Positions 29,655-44,172 of a stretch of DNA of 64,000 nucleotides are shown here, piece by piece. Below the pieces are notes generated by a model that worked only from the letters and a program-made list of their open reading frames with translations, searched no databases and had not been told where the DNA came from. The translations under genes and the position numbers were made by a program. The stretch's first letter is position 1. Each line of letters begins with the position of its first letter. This DNA is from Candidatus Poribacteria bacterium (GTDB lineage Bacteria; Poribacteria; WGA-4E; WGA-3G). The stretch is taken from assembly GCA_958295945.1 (NCBI GenBank), contig OY282386.1, positions 4,954,204-5,018,203 on the forward strand. Reading direction: 5' to 3'.

Positions 29655-29667
29655 AATTCATCGTGAT

Positions 29668-29753
29668 GCCGGGATGCTGGAATTTGGTAGACAGGCTAGA
29701 TTCAGGTTCTAGTGTGCAAATTGCGCGTGAGGGTTCGAGTCCCTTTCCCGGCA
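29668..29753 (+). tRNA. tRNA-Leu (anticodon CAG)
   Basis: The acceptor stem GCCGGGA pairs with TCCCGGC, followed by discriminator A. The anticodon arm CTAGA-TTCAGGT-TCTAG gives anticodon CAG for codon CUG. A long variable arm (TGTGCAAATTGCGC) marks it as class II, and the T arm AGGG-TTCGAGT-CCCT is complete. The 3' CCA is not encoded. It is transcribed toward the 3' end of the MFS gene on the other strand. Confidence 0.95.
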
Positions 29754-29755
29754 TT

Positions 29756-33873: not shown

Positions 33874-35550
33874 TTAAGAAAGTCCGCGAATTACATCTCC
33901 AAGACCTGCGCCTGCGGGGACCATCGGAAATACGTTCTCCTCTTCATCAACGATGAAATCAATCACGACAGGACCATCATTTATGCCTTTTGCCTTTAGT
34001 AATGCAGGTTCAACATCTTCGGGGTGTTCCACTCGGAGACCAGTTGCCCCGAATGCCTGTGCCAGTAACGCGAAATCGGGATTGTCGTGATAATCAACAG
34101 CGGAATAGCGTTTGTCATGGAACAGTTCCTGCCATTGTCGGACCATGCCTAAATACATATTATTGATAATGAATATCTTAAGAGGGAGTTTCATTGTAAT
34201 CGCAGGCACTAACTCCTGAATGGTCATGATGTAGGATCCATCACCATTAATGTTAACAACGGTTTTATCAGGACATCCGAGTTGTGCACCGATTGCTGCA
34301 GGCAGACTGAACCCCATTGTGCCAAGTCCCCCTGAGTTTAACCAAGTTCTTGGGTCTGTAAATTTGAAGTATTGTGCAGCCCACATCTGATGCTGTCCAA
34401 CATCCGCCACGACTATAGCATCGCTATAATGCTCATAGATCTTTTCTATGACATATTGCGGCATAACTTTGTTGCCTTTCTGCTCGTATTCAAACGGATA
34501 TTTCTGTTTCCATTCCTGAATTTGATTACGCCAGGGGTCAATATCTGCTGTATCAACCAACTTGTTTAATTCTGTGAGAACATTCTTGGCATCCCCAACA
34601 ATAGGCACATCAACAGGTACATTTTTTCCGATACAGGATGGGTCAATATCAATGTGGATTTTTTTTGCTTTTGGTGCGAATTTGCCGAGGTCGCCTGTAA
34701 CCCTATCATCAAATCTTGCGCCGATAGCAACAACAAGATCAGCATCTGTAAATGCGTAATTTGCACAGCATGAACCGTGCATTCCAGGCATCTCCATCGC
34801 CAATGGATGTGTTTCTGGAAATGCCCCAAGTCCCATCAACGTGACAGTAATAGGTATCTGTGTATTGAGGGTCAATTTTCGAAGTTCCTCACTTGCATTT
34901 GCGAGAACTACCCCACCACCAGCATATAACATTGGACACTTCGCTTCTTTAATTAAAGCTGCCGCTTTCGCAATTTGTGCTGGGTCACCATTCACTTGGG
35001 GTTTATAACTTCGTATATCAACTGTATCGGGATGTTGAAATATAGTCTCTGCTCTTTGAGCATCCTTCGCTATGTCAATAATAACGGGACCTTGTTTCCC
35101 TGTCCTTGCCAGATGAAATGCTTCAGCGACAACATCTGCGACTTCATCACAACTTTTGACAAGGTAACTATGCTTACAGATTGGTCGGGTAACGCCGATA
35201 ACATCACATTCTTGGAATGCATCACTCCCGATAAATTCTGTCATTACCTGTCCAGTAATCGCAACCATAGGGATTGAATCCATATATGCAGTTGCAATTC
35301 CGGTAACAAGATTTGTTGCCCCGGGACCGGATGTTGCGAGTGCGACTCCAACTTTACCAGTGGCGCGTGCATATCCATCTGCGGCATGAGAAGCACCTTG
35401 CTCATGACGCATCGGGATCAATTTTACTTCTGTTTCATCGTAGAGGGCATCGAAAATCGGCATTGCCGCGCCACCGTTCACACCGAAGATATATTCGACA
35501 CCTTCACGTTTGAGACCATCAACCAGGATATGTGCTCCTGAAAGTTCCAT
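33874..35550 (-). CDS. ilvB: Acetolactate synthase large catalytic subunit
   Basis: A 558-residue ThDP-dependent enzyme that condenses two pyruvates, or pyruvate with 2-oxobutyrate, the first step of branched-chain amino-acid synthesis. The catalytic Glu is in MRHEQGASHAADGYAR (about residue 49), the FAD-linked central domain follows, and the ThDP motif is INGDGSYIMTIQEL (about 440-453). The start at 35550 has GAGGAAATTGAC upstream; a longer reading to 35805 runs through the T-box leader and is rejected. Expression is probably attenuated by the T-box 60 bases upstream. Confidence 0.97.
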   Translation of the reverse strand: MELSGAHILVDGLKREGVEYIFGVNGGAAMPIFDALYDETEVKLIPMRHEQGASHAADGYARATGKVGVALATSGPGATNLVTGIATAYMDSIPMVAITGQVMTEFIGSDAFQECDVIGVTRPICKHSYLVKSCDEVADVVAEAFHLARTGKQGPVIIDIAKDAQRAETIFQHPDTVDIRSYKPQVNGDPAQIAKAAALIKEAKCPMLYAGGGVVLANASEELRKLTLNTQIPITVTLMGLGAFPETHPLAMEMPGMHGSCCANYAFTDADLVVAIGARFDDRVTGDLGKFAPKAKKIHIDIDPSCIGKNVPVDVPIVGDAKNVLTELNKLVDTADIDPWRNQIQEWKQKYPFEYEQKGNKVMPQYVIEKIYEHYSDAIVVADVGQHQMWAAQYFKFTDPRTWLNSGGLGTMGFSLPAAIGAQLGCPDKTVVNINGDGSYIMTIQELVPAITMKLPLKIFIINNMYLGMVRQWQELFHDKRYSAVDYHDNPDFALLAQAFGATGLRVEHPEDVEPALLKAKGINDGPVVIDFIVDEEENVFPMVPAGAGLGDVIRGLS

Positions 35551-35609: not shown

Positions 35610-35646
35610 AAAAAACCTTCTCGTTCCAACTTTGGAGACGAGAAGG
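35610..35646 (-). terminator. T-box-controlled intrinsic terminator
   Basis: The stem CCTTCTCGT(CTCC)/(GGA)ACGAGAAGG is followed by TTTTTT, 60 bases before the ilvB ATG. The GTCTCC on its 5' side is complementary to the GGAG of the T-box, giving the mutually exclusive antiterminator expected for this class. Confidence 0.9.
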
Positions 35647-35970
35647 ATGCGGCTTTAATAGCACGTTTCGGTTTACGTATATTACCGAAACCGACCTTAC
35701 CGTGGTACCACTCCAATTCCTTTCCTCGTTTACTATGGAAATAAGTCTTTTTGAACGACAAAAAACGAGGAAAAGCACTCTTTGGGATGTAATAACGGAC
35801 ATCACACCGACTAACCCTACTGATGTATAGCGATTGGGAAGTCGCTCCTACAGAATGTTCAGGTTAGCAGCTCCAGGACGACCTTCAGTCTTAGGAACTT
35901 GGGGTGACCTTTCAGCCTATGAGTCACCTTCTCTTACAAGTCCAGAGGACCTACTCCTCCCCTTCAACGC
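35610..35970 (-). promoter_or_regulatory. T-box riboswitch leader of ilvB
   Basis: The minus-strand leader shows, in order: GAGGAGTAG (35951-35959, the 5' loop-E/AGTA element of stem I), AGAGAAGGTGAC with the GGTCACC apical stem, TGAAGGTCG (a specifier-loop candidate), a CTGGAGCTGC element, and the hallmark T-box GGAGTGGTACCACGG (35700-35714) with the invariant TGGTACC. The terminator follows. The bulge TGGT would pair with an ACCA tRNA end, matching Leu, Ile or Val tRNAs with discriminator A. The specifier is probably GTC (Val, 35880-35882); CTG (Leu) is an alternative. Uncharged tRNA would favour ilvB transcription. Confidence 0.9.
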
Positions 35971-36051
35971 ATTTACTTAAATTCAATTTTTTATGTACAC
36001 CATTCTTTTGTATCTGTTAGGTGTTTGCGAAATCTTCTCTATACCGTTGTA

Positions 36052-36080
36052 ATTATAATACTTCTCAATGAAAAAGTCAA
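36052..36080 (-). promoter_or_regulatory. Consensus promoter of the ilv leader
   Basis: TTGACT (36075-36080) and TATAAT (36052-36057) have an exact 17-base spacer on the minus strand. Transcription from about 36045 gives a leader of about 495 bases, covering the T-box. Confidence 0.85.
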
Positions 36081-41821: not shown

Positions 41822-43281
41822 TTATTTATCAATACCTTCGCCAAAAAAATTGTTGAATAAATTGGGCAAATGTCCTAAAGTTATGCAAATATATTAATAA
41901 AATAACTTTGAAAGGACAATTGCCCATGCAAGTAATTATAGCACTTTTTGCAGTTTTTGCACCACATATATCTGCAACGACAGGACGCCAATTATCATGT
42001 GTTGTCCTCGCAGTGCTTGCGATGACAGGACGGGTCACCATGTTAAATATCTCTCGTTGGACATCAAAAGGCGGTAGCTACCGCACACTTCAACGCTTTT
42101 TCAACACGGTGCTGCCTTGGCCGACCCTCTTCTGGGTGTTTTTTCGCACACACCTGCTTGATCGTGAAAGCGAATATATCATCGTAGGAGACGAAACAAT
42201 CAAGCCCAAAACGGGTTCAAAGACTTTTGGTTTAGACCGTTTCTTTTCTTCAACACATGGCAAAGCGATCCCAAGTTTGTCATTCTTAGCCGTGTCCTTA
42301 GTGAGTGTCAATGAACGGCGTTCTTATCCAATGGCTATAGAACAAATCGTCCGAGATGACACATCATCGACTTCAGCTGCCAAACAAGATGCTACCCCAA
42401 AGGACCCCTTGAAACGCCCGCGTGGACGCCCAAAAGGGAGCAAAAACCGAGATAAAACCGATGTCGTGATTATCGGTGTTTTGAAACAACTTCAAATTAT
42501 GATCAAAACGCTACTGTCAAAAGTCGGCGGTGCGATCCAACTCCGGTATTTAGTGCTTGATGGATATTTTGGACATAATAACGGAGGACAAATGACAAGA
42601 CAATGTGATCTCCATCTCATCTCAAAACTTCGCTCGGATGCCGCACTGTTTTGGCAACCGACAGACGAAAAAGAAGGCCCCGGACGCCCACGGCTCTACG
42701 GGGAAAGGTTCAACCCACAACAGATTGATCCGAAATGTCGCATCTCTATCCAAACCGATGGAAATATCAGAACCGACATCTATCAAGGACACCTGCGAAA
42801 CCAAAAGTTCCCAGAACTTCTAAACGTCGTTTGCCTCCTCAAGACAAACTTGAAAACAAAAAAGCAATCACACATCCTATTGTTTAGTTCTGATTTAGCA
42901 TTAGACGCAGAAAAGATGATTGACTATTATTCCCTTCGTTTCCAAATCGAGTTCAACTTCCGGGATGCGAAACAATATTGGGGATTGCAAGATGCTATGA
43001 ATGTCAACAAAGAACCCGTGAACACTGCAGCAAATCTATCAATGTTTATGATCCATGTCAGTGCGAAACTCATGGAAAAGGACAGATGTCAGAATCCCGA
43101 ATATAGTGTATTAGATCTCAAATCGCGCTACCGAGGGCTGAAATATGTGCATGAAACATTAAAAATGCTTCCGCAAAAACCTGAACCAATTGTTATTCAG
43201 AAAATCACTGAACATCTGGGTTCAATCGGTGCTATTCATCACACACAACCCAGGATAATTGGCGAAGGTATTGATTTATAG
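41822..43281 (+). mobile_element. IS4-superfamily insertion sequence with matching terminal inverted repeats
   Basis: The left end TTATTTATCAATACCTTCGC and the complement of the right end, CTATAAATCAATACCTTCGC, match with three mismatches (three more matching bases, CAA, follow). The transposase stop codon lies in the right end. No target duplication was found; the right border was hit by the IS630 element directly after it. Confidence 0.85.
41926..43281 (+). CDS. IS4-family transposase
   Basis: A 451-residue DDE transposase starting at ATG 41926 with AAAGGA upstream. The first Asp lies in IIVGDETIKPK (about residues 80-90), the second in LVLDGYFGHN (about 207-216). The Y(2)R(3)E(6)K signature of the IS4 family is exact in YSLRFQIEFNFRDAK (about 326-340). 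The frame is intact, so the element may still be active. Its ribosome site lies inside the left end. Confidence 0.93.
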   Translation: MQVIIALFAVFAPHISATTGRQLSCVVLAVLAMTGRVTMLNISRWTSKGGSYRTLQRFFNTVLPWPTLFWVFFRTHLLDRESEYIIVGDETIKPKTGSKTFGLDRFFSSTHGKAIPSLSFLAVSLVSVNERRSYPMAIEQIVRDDTSSTSAAKQDATPKDPLKRPRGRPKGSKNRDKTDVVIIGVLKQLQIMIKTLLSKVGGAIQLRYLVLDGYFGHNNGGQMTRQCDLHLISKLRSDAALFWQPTDEKEGPGRPRLYGERFNPQQIDPKCRISIQTDGNIRTDIYQGHLRNQKFPELLNVVCLLKTNLKTKKQSHILLFSSDLALDAEKMIDYYSLRFQIEFNFRDAKQYWGLQDAMNVNKEPVNTAANLSMFMIHVSAKLMEKDRCQNPEYSVLDLKSRYRGLKYVHETLKMLPQKPEPIVIQKITEHLGSIGAIHHTQPRIIGEGIDL

Positions 43282-43325: not shown

Positions 43326-43739
43326 ATGTTTCCCATGGCACATTCACCAGATTTGCGAAAACGCATTTTAGATTTTGTTGAAGCTGGCGGGAAAAAATCT
43401 GAAGCTTCCCGTCTGTTTTCCGTTGCCCGCTCAACTATTGATAGATGGTTAGCAGCTGACGACCCGTTTGCCATTAGAAAAACGGGACCCAAAAAAATGA
43501 GAGTGATTGATGAGGAGGCACTCAGAAAACATGTCGCTGATTTCCCAGACTTGACACAAAAAGAGCGTGCTGCACACTTCGGTGTTTCAGAGTTTTGTAT
43601 CGGTTATGGACTCCGAAAACTCGGTATCACACGAAAAAAAGACACTCGGATACAAGGAGCGGTGCGACGAGAAACGACAAGTCTACCTTCAGGCACTCGC
43701 CGAGAAACACGACGCTGGGAAAAAGATAGTTTATGTTGA
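43326..43739 (+). CDS. IS630-family transposase, N-terminal DNA-binding part (frame A)
   Basis: The 137-residue frame is a helix-turn-helix plus winged-helix region (LRKRILDFVEAGGKKSEASRLF, RSTIDRWLA) that binds the element ends. It ends in a stop codon just after an A7 run at about 43634-43640. The homologous frame continues as TLGYKERCDEKRQ in the next frame. Joining frame A to frame B at ITRKK-TLGY restores an ordinary IS630 transposase. A sequencing or replication indel in A7 is an alternative to programmed slippage. Confidence 0.8.
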   Translation: MFPMAHSPDLRKRILDFVEAGGKKSEASRLFSVARSTIDRWLAADDPFAIRKTGPKKMRVIDEEALRKHVADFPDLTQKERAAHFGVSEFCIGYGLRKLGITRKKDTRIQGAVRRETTSLPSGTRRETRRWEKDSLC

Positions 43740-44172
43740 TGAATGCGGTTTTCGTGCTGAGAGTTATAGACGGCATGGGTATGCTCCGAAAGGTGAAGCT
43801 GTTTTAGATTTGATCTCAGGCACAAGAACACGAACAACGACGCTGGTCGCTGCGCGTATCGATCTCACTTTTGCGGCACCATGTTTGTTTGATGGTAGCT
43901 GCGATGCTGCGTGTTTCAATGCTTGGCTTGAAACCTATTTATGTCCAAGGTTGTCTGTCTCAGACGTGGTGGCTCTTGATAATGTCAAAATACACAAGAC
44001 GCATCGCACCCGTGAGTTGATAGAAGCATCGGGAGCAGAGGTATTGTTTTTGTCACCTTATTCACCTGAGGACAATCCGATTGAACATGACTTTGCCAAT
44101 ATCAAACGGCTTAGAGAGCACAAGGCAGATGGAACCATTGATGAAGTTATAAACATGTATCATAAAATATAA
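43567..44172 (+). CDS. IS630-family transposase, catalytic part (frame B)
   Basis: This frame carries the DDE domain, whose real entry is near 43640. The catalytic acids are YVDECGFRAES (first Asp), VVALDNVKIHKTH (second) and YSPEDNPIEHDFANIK (Glu in the canonical S-P-E-x-N-P-I-E pattern). Its apparent GTG start at 43567 is within frame A and is probably not used alone. The product is functional only if fused to frame A by frameshifting. Confidence 0.8.
   Translation: MLHTSVFQSFVSVMDSENSVSHEKKTLGYKERCDEKRQVYLQALAEKHDAGKKIVYVDECGFRAESYRRHGYAPKGEAVLDLISGTRTRTTTLVAARIDLTFAAPCLFDGSCDAACFNAWLETYLCPRLSVSDVVALDNVKIHKTHRTRELIEASGAEVLFLSPYSPEDNPIEHDFANIKRLREHKADGTIDEVINMYHKI

Follow-up and report, generated by a model that had tools for sequence, protein, structure and literature searches.

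Does the minus-strand leader of about 500 bases that separates an open reading frame at 36959-36144 (without a Pfam match) from the ilvB start codon at 35550 hold a T-box riboswitch, which amino acid would it sense, and how did such an element come to lie in a diderm bacterium? The locus belongs to a stretch of 64,000 nucleotides from a Candidatus Poribacteria genome, referred to here as the window, for which a first-pass annotation had proposed a complete T-box with a consensus promoter at 35610-36080. All the elements named in that proposal were found on the minus strand, and the interval encloses them exactly, from the promoter to the T tail.

The T-box leader in the minus-strand segment 35976-35610 is complete and of class I (transcription-attenuating), as judged by its sequence, its match to the Rfam covariance model RF00230, its folds and its covariation. 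The model matched significantly on this strand (89.3 bits, E 4.3e-20), with a complete alignment (model positions 1-219) running end to end over 35976-35684. In a search of the whole 5.34 Mb genome, the ilvB leader ranked first (E 8.3e-20), ahead of a second T-box described below; other matches, with E values from 0.06 to 7, were taken as chance. As its score falls 3.7 bits short of the RF00230 gathering cut-off of 93, default Rfam annotation misses the ilvB leader, and the Rfam scan of the window at default thresholds left the T-box unreported. Both T-boxes of this genome lie below the cut-off, meaning that the default thresholds miss real T-boxes. The low score of the ilvB leader is probably due to a hairpin inserted in the A2 loop of the antiterminator, which makes Rfam misplace the 3′ half of this structure; at the 3′ end, the Rfam alignment wrongly pairs the inserted hairpin with the T-box helix.

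Stem I spans 35970-35870 (−) and comprises the AGTA box (35955-35952), the AG bulge AGAGA (35934-35930), an apical stem-loop closed by GGTGAC/GTCACC (35928-35903), the specifier loop TGAAGGTCG and a CTGGAGC element, with GGAGC closing the stem. A custom stem I model (R1) scored the window stem I at 116 bits. Among 42 distinct ilv-type sequences, 94.8% of the cells were paired, against 37-51% when the partner was slid by 1-3 columns, and two-sided changes occurred at 18 of the 21 pairs, where the slid controls gave 3-8. Shuffles gave 13 cells with two-sided changes where the real alignment has 62, and none of the five measures was reached by them (0/500), but the shuffle tests, here and for the antiterminator, are inflated by the kinship of the sequences, and we rely mainly on the slid controls and on how large the difference is. 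Minimum free energy folding of the isolated stem I did not return the T-box shape, which is evidence neither way. Such a miss is usual for T-boxes, as the folding does not model their non-canonical loops and tertiary contacts. Hence, the stem I fold rests on homology and covariation.

Downstream of stem I, the RF00230 alignment and the fold place stem II at 35867-35811 (−; CTAACC...GGTTAG), and the alignment of the CCGUUA box places the stem IIA/B pseudoknot region at 35809-35786 (−), where the pairings CGG/CCG and GATGT/ACATC were read from the sequence by eye rather than computed. Stem III, TTTTCCTCGTTT...AAACGAGGAAA, occupies 35776-35719 (−), according to the minimum free energy fold and the RF00230 alignment.

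The antiterminator follows at 35716-35632 (−). By eye it reads UUGGAG-(UGGUACC)-ACGG-U-AAGG...CCUU-C-UCGU-CUCCAA, where helix A1 joins TTGGAG (35716-35711) to CTCCAA (35637-35632) and helix A2 is made of ACGG/TCGT and AAGG/CCTT. The unconstrained fold of the same segment agrees (−24.0 kcal/mol) and leaves UGGUACC (35710-35704) as a 7-nt bulge, which is where the first-pass annotation had asked for it to be. Over 56 leaders, ilv and pheS together, 94.5% of the antiterminator cells were paired, against 49-59% in slid controls, and 71 cells carried two-sided changes against 20.7 in shuffles, while further pair types were not above shuffles (181/500). The inserted hairpin lies in the A2 loop (35694-35647), which is longer by about 35 bases in the window and in four relatives of the same genus (L151, L153, L154 and L155), and it leaves A1 and A2 both paired.

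An intrinsic terminator hairpin (35646-35616, −) with a T6 tail (35615-35610) closes the leader; folding of 35650-35610 gave −18.3 kcal/mol (z −5.2). The strand 35646-35632 is both the 3′ strand of the antiterminator and the 5′ strand of the terminator, which renders the two structures mutually exclusive. A class II (translational) T-box was rejected, as the leader has this strong terminator with its T6 tract, the end of which lies some 60 nt ahead of the ilvB ATG.

The promoter is also where it had been proposed, with a −35 element TTGACT at 36080-36075 (−) and a −10 element TATAAT at 36057-36052 (−) separated by 17 nt. With at least 11 of the 12 consensus bases, a spacing of 16-18 and a position no more than 150 bases upstream of the leader as criteria, similar pairs precede 34 of the 44 ilv-type leaders, compared to 9 of 2200 shuffles.

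The gene directly downstream is the ilvB that the annotation had named as the target, coding for the large subunit of acetolactate synthase (35550-33874, −, ATG at 35550-35548; TIGR00118, 786 bits for a cut-off of 538, with TPP enzyme domains). It is followed on the same strand by ilvN, the small subunit (33766-33269; TIGR00119, 183.6 bits), an EamA-family transporter (33072-32110; PF00892) and ilvC, ketol-acid reductoisomerase (32032-31040; TIGR00465, 451 bits). By protein family, the identities of ilvB, ilvN and ilvC are certain. Their order and strand suggest that ilvB, ilvN, the EamA gene and ilvC would form one transcript, and if the logic of a T-box regulon holds, the transporter could handle branched-chain amino acids.

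Elsewhere in the window, a tRNA-Leu(CAG) at 29667-29754 (+) lies beside the 3′ end of a minus-strand MFS gene. By eye, a transposase-like open reading frame (41908-43281) and IS630-like overlapping open reading frames (43326-44172) were also recognised, and this group adjoins a superoxide dismutase-like gene.

The Rfam consensus places the specifier codon after GAA and one base, usually with a purine next. Read by this rule, from the RF00230 alignment and the comparison of leaders, the frame GAA-G-GUC-G gives the triplet GTC at 35880-35882 (−), that is GUC, valine, in preference to leucine or isoleucine, as the annotation had suggested. The same reading gave GUC in 43 of the 44 ilv-type leaders, 39 of them before ilvB, two before ilvD (genomes G002 and G004) and two without a gene match in the flanking sequence covered. 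The genome also encodes a tRNA-Val(GAC) (L166:1706-1779; RF00005 matches and ARAGORN), whose base 73 is an A and fits the UGGU of the T-box bulge.

The single exception is the leader of genome G026 (L143 1525-1781), which carries AUC (Ile) before ilvB, whereas G025 (L103), of the same genus, carries GUC (Val) at this place. This is a candidate natural specifier change, seen in one metagenome-assembled genome (MAG), in which a single-base error might produce the same reading. A pattern search for AUC specifiers gave six sites, of which that of G026 alone is a real leader; the five others were rejected, having no T-box sequence downstream in a leader context.

T-boxes for isoleucine and leucine are common at ilv genes. 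Together with the AUC of G026, this would favour a T-box of another specificity (Ile, Leu or Gly) with its specifier in another register, such as GGU or UCG, in the window. We regard such a reading as very improbable, since the same register, used as an internal control, yields UUC (Phe) in all 26 paralogous pheS leaders, in agreement with the gene, and since the base preceding the triplet varies in the alignment of ilv-type leaders whereas GUC is constant, with a purine (G) directly after the triplet in 44/44.

The annotation had also called a T-box uncommon in a diderm of this kind, a judgement that holds relative to other diderm phyla but fails within the Poribacteria. At E ≤ 0.01, RF00230 detected T-boxes in 79 of 85 Poribacteria genomes, and in 55 of the 56 of good quality. 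The usual number is two per genome, one for valine at ilvB or ilvD and one for phenylalanine at pheS. Orthologues of the ilvB T-box are spread over the phylum and their leaders align as one family, and in the deep lineages G004 (L124 204-441) and G002 (L125 2083-2339), the valine T-box stands before ilvD instead of ilvB. A third T-box in genome G045 (L156) was included among the leaders but not taken for a duplication, as this MAG may hold foreign contigs.

The second T-box of the genome studied here (C1:3963875-3964075, L002 1501-1701; RF00230 73 bits, E 1.3e-15) has a UUC (Phe) specifier and sits between rplT, recognised by eye, and pheS. It has neither stem II nor the IIA/B region, both of which are kept by deeper relatives in the phylum. 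As it follows rplT, the pheS leader may be transcribed from upstream.

Outside the Poribacteria, RF00230 (E ≤ 0.001) found no T-box in the 148 Bacteroidota and 40 Calditrichota genomes searched, the phyla of a Bacteroidetes MAG and of a Calditrichia MAG, but found them in 17 of 64 Latescibacterota, the phylum of a Latescibacterota MAG; the one leader read in the latter (L207 1501-1752) has the frame GAA-G-UUC, hence a UUC specifier. With a Poribacteria stem I model, weaker T-boxes, of which two carry GUC, were found close to ilvB in Paenibacillus, Syntrophomonadaceae and a deltaproteobacterium, so the valine T-box at ilv genes is not unique to the Poribacteria.

Could the T-box and ilvB have been acquired recently as a cassette from a Firmicute, by a local transfer into this genome? 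T-boxes are best known in Firmicutes, the phyla reported being Firmicutes, Actinobacteria, Chloroflexi, Deinococcus-Thermus and Geobacter-type Proteobacteria (PMC2494555, PMC3766115), and the GUC T-box of a Syntrophomonadaceae MAG (L052) lies upstream of an ilvB region. Contamination by a Firmicute contig is ruled out, as the genome is a single contig. The transfer itself deserves even less credence than a different specificity, given the presence of T-boxes across the phylum, the distant lineage G002 included, the alignment of the leaders as one family, and the ilvB protein, which among the matches listed is 92% identical to that of another Candidatus Poribacteria MAG and only ~50-57% to the others. 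We lean towards inheritance: the common ancestor of the Poribacteria would already have had its valine (ilvB or ilvD) and phenylalanine (pheS) genes under T-boxes, an arrangement inherited since, and the ilvB switch would have changed its amino acid at least once by one base, from the comparison of G026 (AUC) with G025 (GUC).

If this is true, the T-box regulon of this diderm phylum would be both ancestral and fixed. The 79 of 85 genomes with orthologous T-boxes at the same two targets make the phylum a usable data point, and a phylum-wide regulon of two targets with a candidate one-base specifier change from Val to Ile is what the present analysis adds. No report of a T-box in Poribacteria was found in the literature searched, where riboswitches and Poribacteria were jointly mentioned only in a Verrucomicrobia genome paper; TBDB, with its 23,535 T-boxes (PMC7778990), could hold entries, so that this absence is unproven.

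We are highly confident that the ilvB leader, as predicted from its sequence, acts as a class I T-box controlling ilvB-ilvN-(EamA)-ilvC by transcription attenuation in response to the valine supply. The mechanism is an ordinary one, that of a known kind of switch. RNA polymerase would start at the sigma70-type promoter and transcribe stem I, where the GUC specifier would pair with the GAC anticodon of tRNA-Val. With an uncharged tRNA, the ACCA end would pair with the UGGU of the T-box bulge and stabilise the antiterminator (UUGGAG...CUCCAA), which would block the terminator and allow ilvB to be transcribed when valine is short. With a charged tRNA, this end would be blocked, CCUUCUCGUCUCCAA would pair with UUGGAACGAGAAGG and transcription would stop at the U6 tract. 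We infer tRNA binding, the valine response and actual termination from this arrangement. The least probable alternative is a relic, a T-box-derived leader that no longer switches, with termination constitutive or lost: the score below the gathering cut-off and the A2-loop insertion in part of the genus would fit it, but the promoter, specifier, bulge, both exclusive hairpins and T tail are intact and conserved with compensatory changes, and the insertion, common to five leaders, spares the pairing of A1 and A2.

Among known or related systems, the pheS T-boxes of the Poribacteria (L002 and relatives) belong to the same class of element and are conserved in the same genomes; unlike the ilvB leader, they carry UUC and none of the 26 is preceded by a consensus promoter in the same search. 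The T-boxes of the Syntrophomonadaceae (L052) and the Deltaproteobacteria (L011) share GUC, the architecture of stem I and a position upstream of ilvB, but they lie 2-3 kb away from this gene rather than directly before it, and their stem I resembles that of the Poribacteria only weakly (34-56 bits with the model built on the latter). The Geobacter/Pelobacter leuA T-boxes (PMC2494555) likewise belong to a diderm and to a gene for branched-chain amino acids, but the gene and the lineage are different and their occurrence in that survey is sporadic, not phylum-wide. Finally, the class I leaders described by RF00230 (B. subtilis tyrS type) share with the ilvB leader stems I, II and III, the AGTA, specifier loop and AG/apical loops of stem I, the IIA/B region, and an antiterminator that carries the UGGUACC bulge and is exclusive with the terminator. 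The ilvB leader differs from them only in detail, by the A2-loop hairpin insert, which is confined to a subclade within the genus, and by its host, a diderm phylum.
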